NCBI RefSeq assembly: GCF_003710105.1
Contig: NZ_CP033325.1
Coordinates: 806,001 to 870,000 of the forward strand
Length of the DNA: 64,000 bases
Origin: Georgenia faecalis
GTDB lineage: Bacteria; Actinomycetota; Actinomycetes; Actinomycetales; Actinomycetaceae
Direction: 5' to 3'
In this document: one piece after another, positions 13,157 through 22,044 of the stretch
Numbering within the stretch: position 1 is the first letter of the stretch
Layout of the letters: every line of letters begins with the position of its first letter
Translations under genes and position numbers: made by a program
Notes under the pieces: model-generated
Database searches by the model: none
What the model was told of the DNA's origin: nothing
What the model saw: only the letters and a program-made list of their open reading frames with translations

Positions 13157-13195
13157 CCGCGCGCCGCGCACCACCGGGCACCTGGCCGCGACGAC

Positions 13196-13237
13196 GAAGG
13201 GGTGGCGGCCGGACCCGGGTCCGGCCGCCACCCCTTC
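13196..13237. terminator. 42-base perfect palindromic bidirectional terminator
   Basis: Nineteen-base arms (13196-13214 and 13219-13237) starting GAAGGGGTGGCGG pair without mismatch around CCGG, and the complete 42 bases are self-complementary. It lies between convergent genes (stops at 13156 and 13249) and can terminate transcription from both sides. Confidence 0.85.
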
Positions 13238-13248
13238 GGTGGCGCGGG

Positions 13249-15114
13249 TCAGCTGCCGATCGCCGAGCGGGCGGCCGCCCTGATGATCATGCCGGCCTCC
13301 CGCTGGGTGATGAGCTCGTCGTCGGCGAGGGGCCGGACGGCGTCACCGACGTGCCGGACGAACTGGCCGTGGCTGTCGTAGTCGCCGTTCTCGTCGATGA
13401 GGTCGTTGATCGTGCACCCGTCGCCGAGGTCGACGTTGGTCACGCCGCTGTCGATCCCGCCGATGACGACCGTGTCCCGGCTGTCGGGGCACTCGCCGGG
13501 CGCCTGCTCGGCGACGGTGAGGGTGAGGGTGTCCTCGGTGGTGTTGCCGGCGTTGTCGGTGGCCCGGTAGGCGAGGGTGTGCTCGCCGGGCTCGGAGATG
13601 GTGATCGCCGCGTGGTAGTGCGTGAACTCCCCGCCGTCGAGGGAGTACTCGAGGGTGTCGACGCCGGAGCCGGCGTCGGTGGCGGCGAGGGTGATCTGGG
13701 CGGAGCCGAGGTAGCTGCCGTCCTCGTCCTGGTCGCCGGTGACCGTGGCGGTGACCTCGGGGGCGGTGGTGTCCGGGTCGGGGTCGGGGGCGTCCTCGGC
13801 GACGGTGAGGGTGAGGGTGTCCTCGGTGGTGTTGCCGGCGTTGTCGGTGGCCCGGTAGGCGAGGGTGTGCTCGCCGGCCTCGGAGATGGCGATCGCCGCG
13901 TGGTAATGCGTGAACTCCCCGCCGTCGAGGGAGTACTCGAGGGTGTCGACGCCGGAGCCGGCGTCGGTGGCGGCGAGGGTGATCTGGGCGGAGCCGAGGT
14001 AGTGGCCGTCCTCGTCCTGGTCGCCGGTGACCGTGGCGGTGACCTCGGGGGCGGTGGTGTCCGGGTCCGGGTCGGGGGCGTCCTCGGCGACGGTGAGGGT
14101 GAGGGTGTCCTCGGTGGTGTTGCCGGCGTTGTCGGTGGCCCGGTAGGCGAGGGTGTGCTCGCCGGCCTCGGAGATGGTGATCGCCGCGTGGTAATGCGTG
14201 AACTCGCCGTCGTCGAGGGAGTACTCGAGGGTGTCGATGCCGGAGCCGGCGTCGGTGGCGGCCAGGGTGACCTGGGCGGAGCCGAGGTAGTGGCCGTCCT
14301 CGTCCTGGTCGCCGGTGACCGTGGCGGTGACCTCGGGGGCGGTGGTGTCCGGGTCCGGGTCGGGGGCGTCCTCGGCGACGGTGAGGGTGAGGGTGTCCTC
14401 GGCGGTGTTGCCGGCGTTGTCGGTCGCCCGGTAGGCGAGGGTGTGCTCGCCGGGGGTGTCGACGGTGATGGGTGTGGTGTAGGCGGTGTAGGCGCCGTCG
14501 TCGAGGGAGTACTCGAGGGTGTCGACGCCGGAGCCGGCGTCGGTGGCGGCCAGGGTGACCTGGGCGGAACCGAGGTAGCTGCCGTCCTCGTCCTGCTCGC
14601 CGGTGACCGTGGCGGTGACCTCCGGGGCGGTGGTGTCCGGGTCCGGGTCCGGGTCGCCGCCGGTGACGACCAGCTCGCCCCACATCTGCCCGTGGCCCGG
14701 GATTGCGCAGAAGTAGCGGTACGTGCCCGGGGTGAGGGTGACCTCGACCTCGTAGCGCCCGCCGTTCGCGTCGAAGGGGTTGGCGACGATGTTGAGGTCG
14801 ACGTCGTGGTTGTACCCCGGGGTCGAGGTGTCGAACGTGAGGGTGTGCGGCATCCCGGTGGTGTTCCCCGCGGCCACGCTGTTGTCGAAGACGACGGTGG
14901 CGGTGCCGGCGACCGCCGTCCCCGGTTCGATGAGGTAGTCGACCACGCTGTTGCCCGCGGTCCACGTGAGCACCTGGTCCGCCGCCGAGGCGGTCGACGG
15001 GACGAGCGTGAGGCCGGTGAGGGCCGCGAGGAGCGCGACGACGATCCGGCGGAGGGTCCCTCGGCGCTCCGGGCGGGGCGCTGGGGTGGGGGGTGAGGTC
15101 ACGGACTGGGACAT
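13249..15114 (-). CDS. Secreted cupredoxin protein with four OmpL47-like repeats
   Basis: The 621-residue product has a Sec signal peptide (RRIVVALLAALTGLTLVP, cleavage after ASA near residue 44). A plastocyanin-like cupredoxin domain follows (~45-155) with type 1 copper ligands: His in MPHTLTF, then Cys, His and Met in YFCAIPGHGQMWGEL. Residues ~160-543 are four 96-residue repeats beginning DTTAPEVTATVTG with SGVDTLEYSLD and TLAYRATDNAGNT, resembling Ig-like/OmpL47-type beta domains. The last ~77 residues are an unnamed domain also found in the neighbouring 1336-residue protein. The protein is probably an extracellular electron carrier or copper-binding adhesin. It is the third gene of the laccase cluster. 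The ribosome-binding site (GGAAGG) is rather distant, so a nearby alternative start is possible. Confidence 0.85.
   Translation of the reverse strand: MSQSVTSPPTPAPRPERRGTLRRIVVALLAALTGLTLVPSTASAADQVLTWTAGNSVVDYLIEPGTAVAGTATVVFDNSVAAGNTTGMPHTLTFDTSTPGYNHDVDLNIVANPFDANGGRYEVEVTLTPGTYRYFCAIPGHGQMWGELVVTGGDPDPDPDTTAPEVTATVTGEQDEDGSYLGSAQVTLAATDAGSGVDTLEYSLDDGAYTAYTTPITVDTPGEHTLAYRATDNAGNTAEDTLTLTVAEDAPDPDPDTTAPEVTATVTGDQDEDGHYLGSAQVTLAATDAGSGIDTLEYSLDDGEFTHYHAAITISEAGEHTLAYRATDNAGNTTEDTLTLTVAEDAPDPDPDTTAPEVTATVTGDQDEDGHYLGSAQITLAATDAGSGVDTLEYSLDGGEFTHYHAAIAISEAGEHTLAYRATDNAGNTTEDTLTLTVAEDAPDPDPDTTAPEVTATVTGDQDEDGSYLGSAQITLAATDAGSGVDTLEYSLDGGEFTHYHAAITISEPGEHTLAYRATDNAGNTTEDTLTLTVAEQAPGECPDSRDTVVIGGIDSGVTNVDLGDGCTINDLIDENGDYDSHGQFVRHVGDAVRPLADDELITQREAGMIIRAAARSAIGS
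13486..14637 (-). repeat. Four tandem 288-base coding repeats
   Basis: Within the cupredoxin gene, units beginning at 14637, 14349, 14061 and 13773 (minus strand) have an exact 288-base period (96 codons). Neighbouring units differ at only a few residues, for example GDQDEDGHYLG versus GDQDEDGSYLG, and FTHYHAAI in three of the four. The first unit is the most divergent. Such near-identity suggests recent amplification and makes the copy number prone to change by recombination or to assembly error. Confidence 0.9.
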
Positions 15115-15205
15115 GTGAGGGGTGAGCCTTCCGGGTGTGCTGCGAAGGATGACGAGAGGGGCCGGTGCGGCGGGCGCGAGACGCCCGCCGCACCGGCATG
15201 ACGGC

Positions 15206-18200
15206 CTAGGACAGGTCCCGCACGCGGACGTTGCGGAACTCCATGAGGTCGTTGGTGCCGTGGTTCTGCAGGCCGATGAACCCGCTGACGAACTGCCGCA
15301 GGTCCGTGGGCGGGTCGCCCGCACGCGAGGACTCCTGGCCCGGCGCGTTCTCCCACTCGTTGATGACCACGCCGTTGCGCAGGATCGTGTACTGCTGGCC
15401 GACGACGCGGATCTCGTAGTCGTTCCACACGCCACGCTCGGTCGCCCCGGCCCCGTCGAGGCCGACGGGGTCGAAGTTGTAGACCGACCCCGTCTTCTGG
15501 GGCTCACCGGACGGACCGTCGTAGATCTGGATCTCGTGACCGCAGGAGATCGCCACCCACGCCTCGGACTGGCCCTGGCCGCACTCCGGCTGCTCCGCGG
15601 CGGTGGGGTCCGGGAAGCGCACGAACACCCCGCTGTTGGCGAAGGTGTCGCCGGTGGAGACGTCCCGGAACTGCAGCTTGAGCGAGAAGTCGGTGAACTC
15701 CTCCTCCTCGTACCACAGCATGCCCAGGCCTCCGCGGCTGAGCAGCGAGCCGCCCGGGAGCAGCTCGAAGGTCCCGCCCGGGGCCTGCCGCCAGCCGTCG
15801 AGGGACTCAGGCGTCCCGTCGAACAGCCACCGGTAGCCGGTCTCGCCGGGCCGCCCGACGGCGGACGCCGCGGCCGCGTTGCTCAGCCGGCCACCGTCGC
15901 GGCCGGTGAGGACGCCGTCGTCGCGCAGCTGGCGGACCAGCGCGTTGACGTGCCGGATGAACGCGCCGTGGTTGTCCCACTCGCCCTCGTCGTTGATGAG
16001 GTCGGCGATGGTGCACCCCCCGAGGTCCTGGTTGGCCACGCCGGAGTCCACCTCACCGACCCACACCGTCTCGCGGACGTCGGGCACGGCGCACTCGATG
16101 GCGACGGGCGTCTCGACCGTCTCCACCGTGCCGTCGGCGTAGGTGACCGTCAGCGTGGCGGTGTACTCGTCGACCCGGTCGTAGGTGTGCCGCGGGTCGG
16201 CCTCGGTCGACGTGGTGCCGTCGCCGAAGTCCCACTCCCAGGCCACGCCACCGGAGCGCGAGCCGGTGAACTGCACCGTCAGCGGGCTGCTCTGCACGCT
16301 CGCCGCCTGCGCCGTCGGCGCCGGGGTGGCCGGACCGCCGGTGTAGGCGATGCGGATGAGCTTCTGGTTCTCGTGCAGGGTGAAGAAGCCGCTGCCGTAG
16401 TCGAGGAGGTACAGCGCGCCGTCGGGGCCGAAGTCGGCGTCCATCCAGCTCTGCAGCTGGTTGCTGCCGCCGCCGGCCCGGATGATGTGGCGCAGGTCCT
16501 CGGCGAACGCCGGGGGCGCCTGCTCGTCGACGCCCTCCGGGTCGGCGGTGATCGCCACCCGGTTGTTGGAGTTCGACTGGTCACCGATGAGCCACTTGCC
16601 CTCCCAGTACTCCGGCCAGGCGACGTCGCTGTCCGGCGAGACCTGCGAGGTGCGGTAGGTCGGGCCGGACATGACGGCCTGACCGCCGCCCCGCAGGTAC
16701 GGCTGGGTGTAGGTGACCTCGTCCTCGACGTAGCTGGGGATGCCGGCCTCGTCCCGCGGGAAGACCGGGCCGCCGCCGCCGGGGGAGTACCAGATCATGT
16801 TGTCCCGGGCGTCGGGGATGTCCACGAGGCCGGTGTTGCGCGGTGACGTGTTCTGCAGGTCGTCGCAGTCGTACCAGTCGGTGAGGACGCTGGCGTCGGT
16901 GTTGCTGCGGTCCCGGTACGGCTGCCGGTTGCCCATGCAGTACGGCCAGCCCTGGTTCCCGGCCGAGGTGATGATGGTCGCCGTCTCGTACTTGGCCGGG
17001 CCCAGCTCGGGGTTCGGTCCGAAGGCGTCCGGGCCCACCCAGGCCGCGGTCAGCCAGTCGGTGTCCGGGTCGATCTGGATGCGCGAGGGGTTGCGCACGC
17101 CCATGACGTAGATCTCCGGGCGGGCCTGCTCGCCGTTCCCCTCGTCGCCGGTGAAGAGGTTGTCCTCGGGGACCGTGTACGTACCGTCCTCCTCGGGGTG
17201 GATCCGCAGGATCTTCCCGTTGAGGTCGTTGGTGTTGCCCGAGGTGCGGCGCGCGTCCTGGAACGAGATCCCGGCGTACTCCTGGGTCCAGTTGTTCCCG
17301 GAGTAGCCGTCCGAGCCCTGGGAGGAGTTGTTGTCACCGGTGGCGACGTACAGGTTGCCGTCGTCGTCGAAGCCCATGCCGCCGCCGGCGTGGCAGCAGC
17401 TGTGGATCTGGGTCTCCCACTCGAGGAGGTCCACGCGGGTGTCCTGGTCGATGGTGAGGTTCTCCCGGTCGTAGGTGAACCTCGAGACGGTCCGCATCCC
17501 CACCCGGTTCTCGGTGTCGATGGACTCGTAGGGCATCCAGTAGACGTAGAGCCAGCTGTTCTCGGCGAAGTTCGGGTCGGGCTCGATGCCGAACAGGCCC
17601 TCCTCGGTCTTGACGAGCTCGCCACCGCTGCCGCGGTTGCCGAACACGTCGAGCACGGTGAGCAGCGTGGCCTCACCGGTGTCCGGGTCCCACTGGTGGA
17701 TGGTGCCGCAGCCAAGCCCGACGTTCGGGTCGTCCCACGACGGGATCGGGCCGGTGGCGCAGGCGCCGCGGCCGACGTAGAAGATCGTGCCGTCGTCGGC
17801 GGCGACCAGGCCGTGAGGCTCACCGATCTGGTCGAGCTCGCCCGGTGCGTTCGGCGTCGTCAGGCGCTCGATCTCGTAGTTCGCACCGATGGTGGCCTGG
17901 CAGTCACCGCGCACGATGCCGCTGGACCACTGGATGGCACCGAGCAGGTGGCTGCGGAAGCCGTCCTCGTCGTAGCTCTCCGGGGTGCCGCCCATGCCGG
18001 TGTAGAAGGAGCGTCCGCCGTCGTAGTCACGGCACCAGGAGATGGGGTGGAACGGGCCGTTGGCGGTGGGGCCGGCGTTGTAGTCCCACTCCTGGACCTG
18101 GGCGACGGTGTGGACCTCGCCGATCGGGTTGGTCTCCCAGTTGAGCCACTTGTCGGAGCGCGTCCAGTTGAGCGGCAGGCCCTCGTTGGCCACGTGCTGG

Positions 18201-19216
18201 CGGTCGACGACGTTGACGGTCGCCTCCTCGGCCGGGATCTCCACCGGGGGAGGGTTGGCCGACGCGTCGGTGAACAGCAGCCAGTCCGCGAGCTGGGTGA
18301 GATCGTCACCGGCGTTCTCGGTGATGTCGAGCTGGAAGTACTGGTACGCCTCGGTGTTCTCGATCTCGTAGGCCTTGCGCTGGAAGCGCTGGGGGAAGTC
18401 GTCGCTGCGGGTGTCGAGGTCCACCCACGTCTCGCCGTCGGTGGACCCGCGCAGCGTCCACGCCTGAGGGTCGCGGCCGGCGGCGTCGTTGGCCGAGGTC
18501 ATCACGTAGCTCGTGATGACGGCCGGCTCCGCGAGCTCCACGGTGAGGGTCGCGGTGGGCTCGAACGCGAGCCACTTGGTGCCCTCGTCGTCGTCGATGA
18601 GGTTGGCCGCGACCTCGTTGGGCGGGTTCTCGGCGGTCGCCGAGATGCTGGCGACCTCCTCCGGGGTCGGGCGGATACCGGCGGGCCGGGCCCCGAGGAG
18701 ACCGGTGAACCACTGCGAGTCCACCTGGGCCGCGACGGCGTCACGGACCCCGAGGAAGCCGCCGCCGTCGTGGATGAAGTCCTGCAGCGCGGCCTCCTGG
18801 GCCGCGTCCAAGGCGCTGCCCTCGGCGGAGAGGAAGACCACCCCGCGGTAGAGGTCGAGGGTCTCCTCGGTGAAGTCGCCGGGGTCCGTGGAGACCGTCA
18901 CCTCGAAGCCACCGTCCTCGCCGAGCTCGGTGATGGTGCGGGCGGCCTCCTCGACCGGGTCGTCCTGGGCCTGCGGGTCGCCGTGGAAGACGAGCACGTT
19001 GACGTCCCCCGCCTGCCCGTCCGCGGCCGGGGCGGGACCGGCGGGGCGCTTGGCGGCGGTGCCCGCGGTCGCCGCGGCGTCTGCGCTGCCGGGCAGGGCG
19101 AGCGCCGGTGCCGCGGTCATGCTCAGCATCAGCGCCGCGCTGGCGGTCAGGACCCCTGCGTGCCGGAGTCGGCGAAGCCGTCCGCCGGTGGATGGGCTTC
19201 TTCGTTGCGTAGGCAA
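15206..19216 (-). CDS. Secreted ThuA / discoidin / PQQ-sugar dehydrogenase / PKD / DUF1080 mosaic
   Basis: A 1336-residue exported protein with signal peptide (LTASAALMLSMTAAPALAL). A ThuA-like (glutamine amidotransferase-fold) domain runs from ~72 to 180 and resumes at ~325-445 (HPISWCRDYDGGRSFYTGMG). Between the two halves sits a discoidin/F5-8C module (~185-320; VITSYVMTSAND, WTLRGSTDGETW). A glucose/sorbosone-dehydrogenase-like propeller spans ~447-955 (GEPHGLVAADDGTIFYVGRG, HAGGGMGFDDDGNLYVATGD). A PKD domain (WEWDFGDGTTS, ~965-1040), an unnamed domain shared with the cupredoxin gene (~1042-1122) and a DUF1080 hydrolase-like domain (~1124-1336) follow. The TTG start has a strong GAGGGGGAG site four bases upstream. 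It probably binds and oxidises or hydrolyses extracellular sugars; the substrate is unknown. Confidence 0.85.
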   Translation of the reverse strand: MPTQRRSPSTGGRLRRLRHAGVLTASAALMLSMTAAPALALPGSADAAATAGTAAKRPAGPAPAADGQAGDVNVLVFHGDPQAQDDPVEEAARTITELGEDGGFEVTVSTDPGDFTEETLDLYRGVVFLSAEGSALDAAQEAALQDFIHDGGGFLGVRDAVAAQVDSQWFTGLLGARPAGIRPTPEEVASISATAENPPNEVAANLIDDDEGTKWLAFEPTATLTVELAEPAVITSYVMTSANDAAGRDPQAWTLRGSTDGETWVDLDTRSDDFPQRFQRKAYEIENTEAYQYFQLDITENAGDDLTQLADWLLFTDASANPPPVEIPAEEATVNVVDRQHVANEGLPLNWTRSDKWLNWETNPIGEVHTVAQVQEWDYNAGPTANGPFHPISWCRDYDGGRSFYTGMGGTPESYDEDGFRSHLLGAIQWSSGIVRGDCQATIGANYEIERLTTPNAPGELDQIGEPHGLVAADDGTIFYVGRGACATGPIPSWDDPNVGLGCGTIHQWDPDTGEATLLTVLDVFGNRGSGGELVKTEEGLFGIEPDPNFAENSWLYVYWMPYESIDTENRVGMRTVSRFTYDRENLTIDQDTRVDLLEWETQIHSCCHAGGGMGFDDDGNLYVATGDNNSSQGSDGYSGNNWTQEYAGISFQDARRTSGNTNDLNGKILRIHPEEDGTYTVPEDNLFTGDEGNGEQARPEIYVMGVRNPSRIQIDPDTDWLTAAWVGPDAFGPNPELGPAKYETATIITSAGNQGWPYCMGNRQPYRDRSNTDASVLTDWYDCDDLQNTSPRNTGLVDIPDARDNMIWYSPGGGGPVFPRDEAGIPSYVEDEVTYTQPYLRGGGQAVMSGPTYRTSQVSPDSDVAWPEYWEGKWLIGDQSNSNNRVAITADPEGVDEQAPPAFAEDLRHIIRAGGGSNQLQSWMDADFGPDGALYLLDYGSGFFTLHENQKLIRIAYTGGPATPAPTAQAASVQSSPLTVQFTGSRSGGVAWEWDFGDGTTSTEADPRHTYDRVDEYTATLTVTYADGTVETVETPVAIECAVPDVRETVWVGEVDSGVANQDLGGCTIADLINDEGEWDNHGAFIRHVNALVRQLRDDGVLTGRDGGRLSNAAAASAVGRPGETGYRWLFDGTPESLDGWRQAPGGTFELLPGGSLLSRGGLGMLWYEEEEFTDFSLKLQFRDVSTGDTFANSGVFVRFPDPTAAEQPECGQGQSEAWVAISCGHEIQIYDGPSGEPQKTGSVYNFDPVGLDGAGATERGVWNDYEIRVVGQQYTILRNGVVINEWENAPGQESSRAGDPPTDLRQFVSGFIGLQNHGTNDLMEFRNVRVRDLS

Positions 19217-19240
19217 TTCTCCCCCTCGGAGTACGACGTC

Positions 19241-19263
19241 GCCCCCGGCGGTGTGCCGGGGGC
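19241..19263 (-). terminator. Hairpin between laccase and mosaic gene
   Basis: Nine-base arms GCCCCCGGC/GCCGGGGGC surround a five-base loop, 14 bases after the laccase stop (minus strand) and 25 bases before the TTG start of the mosaic gene. It may attenuate readthrough or stabilise the laccase message rather than fully separate the two genes. Confidence 0.55.
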
Positions 19264-19276
19264 GCGAGACCAGCGG

Positions 19277-20296
19277 TCAGTGCCCTCCTTCGTGCTCGTG
19301 GAACCAGTCGATCGACTCCTGGGCGCCGTCGGGCATGCTGCCGTCCGCGTTCCGGACGAGGAAGATGCCGGCCATCCCGCCGTCGGAGTGGAACTGGACG
19401 TGGCAGTGGTACATCCACGCGCCGGGACCCACGTCCTCGCCGGCCACCACCTGGAAGCCGAAGGAGTCCCCGGGGTTGAGGTCGCGGGTGTCGATGATCT
19501 GGCTCGGGTCGCGCGGGCCCTCGAGGTAGCCCGTCCGGTTGTTCGCCCAGCGGTGCGCGTGCAGGTGGAACGTGTGGAACATGTCCCCGTGGCCGATGCA
19601 GATGAACTCCACGGTCTCGCCGAGCCGCGCCTCGAACATCGGGGTGTGCGGCGCGGACTGGTTGTTGATGAGCATCCCGTTGAAGACGCAGGTGAACTGC
19701 CGGTCGGGCAGGACGTCGCCCCGCCGGCGCACGATGAGCGCGCCGTAGAGCCCGGCAGCCAGGCCACCCGTTCCGTGCGGGGTGCCCATGGCGTGGTCGT
19801 GGTAGTGCCAGTACCCCGCGGTGCCCGGACGGCTCCACCGGCCCATGGACCGCTCGCCGGTGGTCCGCCAGGTGTACGTGCGCGTCTCGCCGGGCCCGTT
19901 GTAGGAGGCGTTGAACGGGGAGCCGTCGGAGGCGGTGTCGTAGAGCACGCCGTGCGGGTGGATGGAGACATCCCGGTCGGTGGTGTTGACGAGCGTGATC
20001 TCCATGGTGTCGCCCTCGTACATCTCGAGGACGGGACCCGGGATCGTCGCGGCGCCCGGCTCGAGGCCGTAGCCCACCTGCCCGCCGCCGAGCTCCTCGA
20101 CGTACATGGTGATGCGGTGCGTCGTGCCCGCCGGCACCGCGGCGCTGGGGCGGCTGGCCGTGGACGGCGACACGGCGACGGCGGACGTCCCGAGGGCGGC
20201 GGCCGTCGCCGGGACGAACATGGCAGTGGTGGCGCCCGCGAGGACAGCGCGGCGCGAGAGCCCCCCGTCGTTCTGGGGCCGGGTGGTGCTGGTCAT
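19277..20296 (-). CDS. Two-domain (small) laccase, Tat-exported multicopper oxidase
   Basis: The 339-residue protein is a SLAC-type two-domain multicopper oxidase that oxidises phenols, metal ions or proteins while reducing O2 to water. ATG 20296 is preceded by GGGAG; an in-frame upstream start at 20332 lacks a site. A twin-arginine signal (LSRRAVLAGATTAMFVPATA, residues 13-32) indicates folded, copper-loaded export. Copper-site motifs in order: SIHPHGVLYD, YWHYHDHAMG, HTFHLHAHRW and the closing HCHVQFH, together supplying the type 2/3 cluster and type 1 centre. The family functions as a homotrimer. It is the promoter-proximal gene of the minus-strand cluster with the mosaic and cupredoxin proteins. 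Confidence 0.93.
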   Translation of the reverse strand: MTSTTRPQNDGGLSRRAVLAGATTAMFVPATAAALGTSAVAVSPSTASRPSAAVPAGTTHRITMYVEELGGGQVGYGLEPGAATIPGPVLEMYEGDTMEITLVNTTDRDVSIHPHGVLYDTASDGSPFNASYNGPGETRTYTWRTTGERSMGRWSRPGTAGYWHYHDHAMGTPHGTGGLAAGLYGALIVRRRGDVLPDRQFTCVFNGMLINNQSAPHTPMFEARLGETVEFICIGHGDMFHTFHLHAHRWANNRTGYLEGPRDPSQIIDTRDLNPGDSFGFQVVAGEDVGPGAWMYHCHVQFHSDGGMAGIFLVRNADGSMPDGAQESIDWFHEHEGGH

Positions 20297-20333
20297 GGAG
20301 GCTCCCGCCATCTCGGACAGCGCCTCGGTCACG

Positions 20334-21066: not shown

Positions 21067-22044
21067 ATGCGAAAGCGACTGACCAGCGTGATGATCGGCG
21101 GGCTGGTGCTCGCCGGGTTCGGGGCCGCCGGTCCCGCACAGGCCGGCCTGACCACCCACTGCGTGGGGTCAGCCTCGGGCGTGACCGTCCCGGGTGACCT
21201 CCTCGTCCCCGCCGACCAGGCCTGCTCGCTCGAGGACATCGTCGTCACCGGCAACGTCACCGTCGCCCGGGGCGCGGACCTCGTCGGCGACGGCCTCACC
21301 ATCAACGGGAACGTCACGGTCCAGGGCGACGGCTACCTCGACCTGGGGGAGTCGACGGTCGCGGGCAACGTCGCGAACCGCGGCGCCTTCGGCATCTACC
21401 TCGACGGCACCGACGTCAACGCCTACACCGCGACGGCCAACGTCAACCCCGACTCCTTCCTCTGGACCTACGGGGCCACCTTCGCCGGACGCATCGCCTC
21501 CACCGGCGGCTCGTTCCTCCTGGAGAGCTCGGTGGCCCAGCGGCTCGTGGAGACGACCGACTCGCTCTACACCGACGTCCTCGACTCCGTGGTCGGCGGC
21601 ACCCTCACCGTCACCGGCGCCGAGTACGGCGCGACCGTCTGCGGCAGCGAGGTCGACGGCCACGCCACCTTCGCCGGCAACGGGGTGGGGGTCCAGCTCG
21701 GGGCGGGCGGCGCGCTCGGCGAGTGCGAGCACGGCACCAGCGTCTGGAGCGGGAACGTCACCGTCACCGGGACCACCGGCGTCGCCGAGGTCTCGGGCAA
21801 CGTCATCCGGGGCAACCTGGCCGGGACCGGCAACGAGTCGGTGTCCGCGAGCGGCAACCGGGTCCGCGGTGAGCTCCAGGGCCAGTTCGCCGAGCAGGCC
21901 GACCAGGGCACCATGCGGATGCGGCTCGAGGCGCCGGCCGCCGCCGAGGCGGACGCCAACCGCGACGTCCTCGAGCAGCGCCGCACGGCGCGCCTCGCTG
22001 AGGCGGAGCAGCTGGCCGACGCCGCGGGGCCCGCTGACCTGTGA
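21067..22044 (+). CDS. Secreted beta-helix-like protein of unknown function
   Basis: The 325-residue product has a clear signal peptide (KRLTSVMIGGLVLAGFGAAG, cleavage after AQA near 26). The body repeats short strand/turn units: VVTGNVTVARGADL, TINGNVTVQGDGYL, STVAGNVANRG, WSGNVTVTGTTGV, VSGNVIRGNLAGTG, VSASGNRVRGEL. This regular G-N-V-T-V pattern suggests a right-handed parallel beta-helix (solenoid), as in bactofilin-like or adhesin-like proteins. Two cysteines near residues 33 and 53 and two near 190 and 215 may form disulfides. The C-terminal ~45 residues are a charged helix (NRDVLEQRRTARLAEAEQL). No catalytic motif is visible. It is monocistronic with a strong ribosome-binding site and terminator. 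Confidence 0.7.
   Translation: MRKRLTSVMIGGLVLAGFGAAGPAQAGLTTHCVGSASGVTVPGDLLVPADQACSLEDIVVTGNVTVARGADLVGDGLTINGNVTVQGDGYLDLGESTVAGNVANRGAFGIYLDGTDVNAYTATANVNPDSFLWTYGATFAGRIASTGGSFLLESSVAQRLVETTDSLYTDVLDSVVGGTLTVTGAEYGATVCGSEVDGHATFAGNGVGVQLGAGGALGECEHGTSVWSGNVTVTGTTGVAEVSGNVIRGNLAGTGNESVSASGNRVRGELQGQFAEQADQGTMRMRLEAPAAAEADANRDVLEQRRTARLAEAEQLADAAGPADL

Follow-up and report, generated by a model that had tools for sequence, protein, structure and literature searches.

Two-domain (small) laccases of Streptomyces and its relatives, typified by SLAC (SCO6712; PDB: 3cg8, 9ix9), have been studied for dye, lignin, and production uses; the SLAC papers, as excerpted here, treat the enzyme alone, and a review calls the roles of the Streptomyces laccase speculated (PMC7036934; this and the other PMC-numbered sources are drawn on in excerpt). 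Also known are sugar dehydrogenases that act outside the cell together with a one-electron carrier, such as the fungal quinohemoprotein pyranose dehydrogenase CcPDH (AA8-AA12), a secreted enzyme with a GSDH fold and a cytochrome b carrier domain in the same chain, for which the excerpts mention no laccase partner and describe partly different contacts to pyrroloquinoline quinone (PQQ) (PMC6881789). In Caulobacter, the LacABC lactose 3-dehydrogenase performs extracytoplasmic sugar oxidation beside a DUF1080 protein, but it is a membrane-bound dehydrogenase of another type, and no laccase or cupredoxin is mentioned in the excerpts (PMC9007349). Finally, the PQQ aldose sugar dehydrogenases (Escherichia coli YliI, 2g8s; Streptomyces coelicolor, 3das; Acinetobacter sGDH, 1c9u) have in common a six-bladed propeller with a catalytic His, an Arg-Asn pair, and a Gly-Pro pair. 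Here, we report a cluster in a 64,000-nucleotide window of the Georgenia faecalis genome (NCBI RefSeq: GCF_003710105.1, contig NZ_CP033325.1, positions 806,001 to 870,000; coordinates below count from the first letter of this whole stretch) that combines a laccase with the domain layout, copper ligands, and Tat-type (twin-arginine translocation) signal of SLAC, a mosaic protein with fused ThuA and GSDH domains, and a secreted cupredoxin. Unlike SLAC as hitherto treated, the laccase is here one member of a conserved set. Searches of open-access text on small or two-domain laccases, ThuA, and SCO6711–SCO6713 recovered, in the excerpts returned, no description of this cluster, and a set with a small laccase as the oxidase was not found described in that literature. 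We propose that an actinobacterial small laccase may transfer sugar-derived electrons to oxygen extracellularly.

The cluster comprises three adjacent minus-strand open reading frames between positions 13249 and 20296, all with signal-like starts and separated by gaps of 60 bp (laccase/gene 2) and 91 bp (genes 2/3). The original prediction, made from the letters and open reading frames of the window, had recognized in them consecutive genes for a Tat-exported laccase, a secreted ThuA/discoidin/GSDH/DUF1080 mosaic, and a secreted cupredoxin with repeats, and the reading frames, Pfam, and NCBIfam all agree with that gene content. Gene 1 (19277..20296, minus strand) codes for the two-domain laccase; its open frame runs from 19277 to a GTG at 20332, the ATG at 20296 being the likelier start. 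The product displays the Cu-oxidase_3 and Cu-oxidase_2 domains of Pfam, has the length of about 350 aa that marks two-domain small laccases, and finds its top PDB relative in the two-domain laccase 9ix9 (residues 25–342 aligned, e-value 1.5 × 10–123). Its twin-arginine motif, SRRAVL, belongs to a Tat-type pattern seen in 95 of 128 related open frames (by motif pattern alone), and the twelve positions that we take, from the SLAC pattern, to be the type 1, 2, and 3 copper ligands are all present and are kept in 120–126 of 126 relatives.

Gene 2 (15206..19216, minus strand) starts with a TTG at 19216, preceded by a purine-rich, ribosome-binding-like stretch, and encodes a secreted protein of 1336 aa identified from its reading frame and Pfam matches. 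Its ThuA domain (PF06283, 182.4 bits against a cut-off of 33.4) is recovered as two stretches flanking an inserted discoidin (F5/8 type C) domain (18245..18664, minus strand; Pfam), whose closest relative of known structure, judged by sequence, belongs to a GH92 mannosidase. These are accompanied by the GSDH-type six-bladed propeller (16331..17896, minus strand; Pfam, alignments, and a structure model), a PKD domain, a module of about 80 aa without a Pfam family match that we term CTm (15851..16090, minus strand), and a DUF1080/3-keto-disaccharide hydrolase domain (15218..15832, minus strand; PF06439, 112.6 bits against a cut-off of 26.8). Gene 3 (13249..15114, minus strand; Pfam and NCBIfam) encodes a secreted protein of 621 aa with a cupredoxin domain, four OmpL47 repeats (by NCBIfam), and a second copy of CTm (13252..13512, minus strand), a module absent from the original prediction. 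The cupredoxin domain (14659..14979, minus strand; plastocyanin-type PF00127, 26.5 bits against a cut-off of 21.2) carries a His-Cys-x4-His-x2-Met type-1 copper site, and all four ligands are kept in 116 of 116 cupredoxins. The CTm copies, which are C-terminal in gene 3 and just before DUF1080 in gene 2, match each other and are the only two that a profile search of the whole genome recovered (E ≤ 0.1). The module carries a conserved Cys and an HGxFVxHV-like stretch; its structure model (predicted local distance difference test score, pLDDT, 84.9) found no PDB match at E ≤ 0.001 and none with Z ≥ 5 among 118 chains.

A scan of genome contigs recovered at least 573 laccase relatives, of which the best 80 with their flanks were kept; being nearest by laccase sequence, these are not a neutral sample, and together with locus L036 (from genome G007), which may repeat one of the 80, they constitute our 81 near loci. 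A survey of small-laccase neighborhoods for linked ThuA-GSDH and cupredoxin genes, which the original prediction had put forward as a check, came out in its favor: laccase, ThuA, GSDH, PKD, CTm, DUF1080, and cupredoxin occur in one order and on one strand at 78 of the 81, with an OmpL47 match downstream at 77 (in the latter scan the two CTm queries cross-match, so that it does not test gene 3's own copy). Among the exceptions, L083 (for the repeats only) and L119 stop at a contig end. The hosts range from Georgenia to Micromonospora, Saccharothrix, Jiangella, and Rhodococcus. As a neutral sample, we used 296 genomes of the class with thresholds of E ≤ 10–40 for the laccase and E ≤ 10–90 for the GSDH domain, the latter chosen to leave out paralogues. 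The laccase was present in 42 genomes and the GSDH domain in 41, all of them within those 42 (the exception being G073), with 1057–2227 bp between the GSDH domain and the nearest laccase in 41 of 41 (opposite strand in 23, same strand in 18). A Fisher test of the co-occurrence gives 10–49, for genomes that are related rather than independent (the 41 represent 9 genera). A cupredoxin accompanied the GSDH domain at 34 of the 35 class-sample loci inspected, the remaining one (L164) being cut by a contig end; of the other six, one is the window itself and five were left out. A chance neighborhood is thus ruled out by the 78 same-order near loci and the 41/41 linkage in the class sample. Pairwise distances between the genes also correlate over 111 loci (laccase–GSDH r=0.86, laccase–cupredoxin r=0.64, GSDH–cupredoxin r=0.52; at most 0.22 in 500 label shuffles), shared host ancestry contributing to the observed values. 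Among the nearest relatives the set is patchy, with a strong laccase match only in G000 and G007 (2/59). The three genes are a real conserved unit that is widespread in actinobacteria, and the cluster is not a rarity, being what usually surrounds this laccase family at the loci inspected.

The most likely reading of this unit, which we hold with moderate confidence, is that it is a conserved secreted sugar-oxidizing system in which electrons run from the dehydrogenase through the cupredoxin and the laccase to O2. In such a system, the GSDH-type domain of gene 2 would oxidize a glycoside, perhaps at C3, and electrons would pass singly from it to the gene 3 cupredoxin, which would then be re-oxidized by the small laccase at its type-1 copper, with the laccase reducing O2 to water. 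The oxidized sugar would be processed by the DUF1080 domain and perhaps by ThuA as well, and the discoidin, PKD, and OmpL47 parts would tether the proteins to a polymer or the wall. Through the CTm module that they share, the products of genes 2 and 3 may dock together. An electron path from a sugar to oxygen outside the cell had been part of the original prediction; it stays plausible by the co-occurrence, the intact copper ligands, the exchange of a domain between partners, and carrier fusions in relatives (the latter two described below), though its PQQ component fares less well. The small laccase is tightly linked, across families, to a single dehydrogenase subfamily and a single blue copper protein, which offers a concrete, testable set of partners. 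If the path is real, small laccases would shift from lignin chemistry towards extracellular sugar oxidation, and the system would expose a dehydrogenase subfamily of doubtful PQQ use along with a small docking-type module.

That electrons leave the GSDH domain singly is best supported by relatives in which this domain is joined to a carrier. A plasmid protein search returned 97 records, of which ten were inspected (H1, H3, H4, H7–H12, and H14), and in four of these ten a GSDH protein goes together with cytochrome c (in Runella and Gemmatirosa) or with cupredoxin (in Haladaptatus and Halocatena). The Runella protein has the architecture GSDH-PKD-cytochrome c-CBM6, and in Gemmatirosa the cytochrome c match lies in the downstream frame; in Haladaptatus, two GSDH proteins carry cupredoxin domains and one of them ThuA as well, and Halocatena has a single GSDH-cupredoxin protein. 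With the latter as query, seven of nine haloarchaeal records (its own among them) gave matches extending from the cupredoxin part into GSDH, a count that covers GSDH whether or not of the ThuA-linked type. Carriers on relatives of the dehydrogenase thus occur in haloarchaea, Bacteroidota, and Gemmatimonadota. In Skermanella an ordinary GSDH lies near a cytochrome c gene. Natronococcus, near ABC (ATP-binding cassette) transporter genes, has a DUF1080-GSDH gene and, at a distance of about 5 kb, a multicopper oxidase to which an extra cupredoxin domain has been added.

A further line of support is domain exchange between the partners. At 18 Streptomyces-like loci, the laccase gene is divergent from a gene for a shorter ThuA-GSDH protein and DUF1080 ends the cupredoxin protein instead; over all loci, 97 of 115 GSDH proteins and 18 of 116 cupredoxin proteins carry DUF1080. 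Its exchange between neighboring proteins suggests that they work together. DUF1080 had been counted, in the original prediction, among modules that bind the polymer, an assignment weakened by what the family is known to include: 3-ketoglycoside hydrolases, as in BT2157 and probably in Caulobacter too, with another member being named an endo-xanthanase/lichenase, and in lactose use a DUF1080 protein accompanies a 3-dehydrogenase (PMC9007349). By this analogy, the DUF1080 domain of gene 2 is probably a 3-ketoglycoside hydrolase and more than a polymer-binding module. The protein that carries it also carries ThuA, and ThuA has a role in the use of 3-keto sugars.

Several observations weigh against the sugar-to-oxygen path, and a first group of them concerns the GSDH domain. 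Its model (pLDDT 85.5) finds its best fold matches in PQQ-type aldose sugar dehydrogenases (2ism: Z 35.2, root-mean-square deviation [rmsd] 2.3, 325 aligned; 3das: Z 32.7, rmsd 2.7, 324 aligned), and also fits the hedgehog-interacting protein (Z 26.7, rmsd 3.2, 344 aligned), which has a GSDH-like fold and is not known to be an enzyme. A profile alignment to sGDH equates His169 with His144, Arg268-Asn269 with Arg228-Asn229, and Gly299-Pro300 with Gly247-Pro248; the catalytic His, the Arg-Asn, and the Ca-binding Gly-Pro are kept without exception by all 118 domain sequences, of which 115 are encoded by the gene belonging to a laccase locus and 3 are additional. A check of the PQQ and calcium ligands, suggested along with the earlier PQQ label, thus found the His, Arg-Asn, and Gly-Pro kept, but three further PQQ ligands lost. 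In an hhalign comparison with YliI, a Ser and a Met stand opposite its Arg-x-Arg and the place of Lys377 is without Lys; across the 118 sequences, the place of Arg408 is always Met, that of Arg406 (which we take to be a PQQ carboxylate residue) is never Arg (one gap), and neither the place of Lys377 nor its neighbor has Lys or Arg. Another departure from the PQQ aldose sugar dehydrogenases, besides the fusion to ThuA and often to DUF1080, is a Cys-Cys pair ahead of the catalytic His in 118/118 locus sequences, which is also seen in 13 of 15 wider ThuA-GSDH-type relatives. These 15 have lost the equivalents of Arg408 and Lys377 throughout and that of Arg406 in 14 (L040 keeps Arg), with an Arg one place past Lys377 in four. 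The Arg-x-Arg is kept in YliI and in the genome's own ordinary GSDH (the latter not aligning at Lys377), and is absent from the ordinary GSDH of Skermanella. Lys377 and Arg408 contact the PQQ carboxylates (PMC6881789). The biosynthesis gene pqqE, the only one searched for, was found in 6 of 296 class genomes, four of them among the 41 with the GSDH domain; it was not found in 37 of these 41, including the present genome, nor in any of 14 control genomes. Synthesis of PQQ by the host is not a strict requirement for such an enzyme. With the three residues lost and pqqE mostly not found, PQQ is doubtful as the cofactor and the GSDH domain is a putative rather than a proven redox enzyme.

These data bear on a variant of the sugar-to-oxygen path in which the domain is a classic PQQ sugar dehydrogenase using PQQ from its surroundings. 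The fold, the kept His, Arg-Asn, and Gly-Pro, and the presence of pqqE in 4 of 41 hosts speak for this variant, and in AA12 enzymes some of the residues that contact PQQ are replaced by others (PMC6881789), so that a domain without Lys377, Arg406, and Arg408 could still possibly hold PQQ in another way. Set against the uniform loss of the three residues in the locus sequences, their near-uniform loss in the wider relatives, the retention of Arg-x-Arg in YliI and the genome's ordinary enzyme, and the 37 hosts in which pqqE was not found, we regard the classic PQQ variant as doubtful.

A second group of contrary observations comes from neighborhoods and relatives. The genome has four GSDH paralogues, three with ThuA, that lack a laccase or cupredoxin in the stretches inspected, and the wider GSDH family therefore needs no such partner; the plasmid records H3, H4, and H8 (Paenibacillus, and the Streptomyces relatives H3 and H8) are likewise without a carrier domain. 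In the Streptomyces-like loci, the laccase is transcribed apart. An ABC ATPase occurs at 23 of 120 loci, and a binding protein of the amino-acid type joins it in 10 (names given by the look of the sequence), and these neighbors accordingly do not point to sugar. Certain loci lack one of the partners: L048 is without ThuA-GSDH and L120 without cupredoxin (10 kb downstream covered in both), GSDH is missing from L154 and L156, where laccase and cupredoxin are present, and L152 and L161 have the laccase alone. In L151, a locus cut by a contig end, laccase and cupredoxin are present and GSDH was not seen.

The persistence of cupredoxin and laccase without GSDH at L048, L154, and L156 (and in the truncated L151), together with the three PQQ ligands missing from the GSDH site, would suit a role in copper supply or detoxification, with the cupredoxin as a copper store or laccase chaperone, the laccase oxidizing Cu(I), and the GSDH protein a non-redox carbohydrate anchor. 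However, the His-Cys-His-Met site, invariant in 116/116, is of the electron-transfer type, a mere anchor would have no need of a catalytic His and Arg-Asn invariant in 118/118, and the regulators seen near some loci, LacI and ROK, belong to sugar-type families (metal-type regulators were not searched for). We therefore consider this explanation quite improbable. At L154, L156, and L151, the laccase gene is divergent from the cupredoxin gene beside ROK-type regulators, with no GSDH seen nearby (L151 being cut), and the laccase-cupredoxin pair possibly has a second use there.

The literature on small laccases would fit another explanation, namely that the laccase oxidizes phenols (lignin, humic matter) or makes radicals, and that the ThuA-GSDH-DUF1080 protein and the cupredoxin are separate polysaccharide tools in a biomass-degradation locus, with no electron transfer between them. 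The known in vitro substrates of small laccases are phenols (PMC3918160), and a silA mutant of Streptomyces ipomoeae released less lignin from straw, with respiration down 40 percent (PMC5675413), which fits a phenol-oxidizing role and counts against a path fed by sugar; the presence of carbohydrate-binding-type modules is also compatible with it. This explanation, however, gives no role to a carrier-type cupredoxin with all its ligands, and the 41/41 tight linkage to one dehydrogenase subfamily and the carrier fusions would need another reason. We accordingly judge it unlikely, if less so than the copper explanation, and retain the dehydrogenase-cupredoxin-laccase path as our preferred reading. 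In its boldest form, this path would make the small laccases of actinobacteria dedicated terminal oxidases of a secreted respiratory-like chain. The chain would be fed by a dehydrogenase of the GSDH fold whose cofactor, or whose mode of PQQ binding, is new and which makes 3-ketoglycosides on polymers for DUF1080 to cleave; haloarchaea and Bacteroidota would use cupredoxin or cytochrome c fused to relatives of this dehydrogenase. We offer this extension tentatively, as a rather less likely proposition than the path itself.

As to transcription, a hairpin with a 17-bp stem lies between genes 2 and 3 (15161..15197, minus strand; –42.7 kcal/mol, z –5.9), resembling a terminator or attenuator without a T run, and another with a 20-bp stem lies past gene 3 (13195..13238, minus strand; –57 kcal/mol, z –6.6), a possible terminator likewise without a T run; that 3′ of the laccase is weak (z –2.06). 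A terminator scan requiring a T run, a weak guide in a GC-rich host, listed none of the three and no minus-strand terminator, and a search for sigma-70-like promoters gave 0 sites, which says little for such a host. The hairpin between genes 2 and 3 is also strong in five near loci (L042–L045 and L036, the last possibly duplicating a genome of the others; –39 to –47.5), but only 32 of 78 loci have a fold below –30 in the first 60 nt (raw energies, without correction for base composition). Given the strong hairpin between genes 2 and 3, we rejected the three genes as a proven operon.

The commonest neighbor families around the laccase loci are the above ABC transporter ATPase and a repeat protein. 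The latter is represented in the window by a divergent gene (21067..22044, plus strand) for a secreted-looking protein of 325 aa, without a Pfam or NCBIfam match, whose repeats suggest a beta-helix-like structure. Its relatives occur at 50 of 121 laccase loci. In the Georgenia group they lie divergently upstream of the laccase, and elsewhere they lie downstream of the cupredoxin, making the protein a possible fourth component. LacI-type regulators lie within 4 kb at 7 of the 18 Streptomyces-like loci. A Streptomyces fungicidicus plasmid has the layout of these loci, divergent laccase and DUF1080 on the cupredoxin protein, with a LacI regulator adjoining the laccase, its proteins being annotated one by one there. 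Of 120 loci, 4 have a ROK protein and 5 a xylose-isomerase-like protein. A group of loci of the Micromonospora type (e.g., L085, L111) has an amino-acid-type ABC transporter (ATPase, permease, and binding protein, by the look of the sequence) 1–3 kb upstream of the laccase.

Large GSDH paralogues of the same genome lie at L037:4960–8934 (plus strand), L038:8909–16006 (plus strand), and L040:5555–10789 (minus strand). Two paralogue loci have ABC transporter-like and xylose-isomerase-like genes (by the look of the sequence, two barrels by Pfam), one of them adding Gfo/Idh-like and ROK-like genes by the look of the sequence. The paralogues of L037 and L038 themselves contain xylose-isomerase-like barrels, and those of L037 and L040 collagen-like repeats. 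A DUF1080 domain with a xylose-isomerase-like barrel also occurs in Natronococcus. In a haloarchaeal locus (L190:5641–7626, minus strand), a multicopper oxidase with an extra plastocyanin-type domain is encoded near DUF1080 and GSDH genes.

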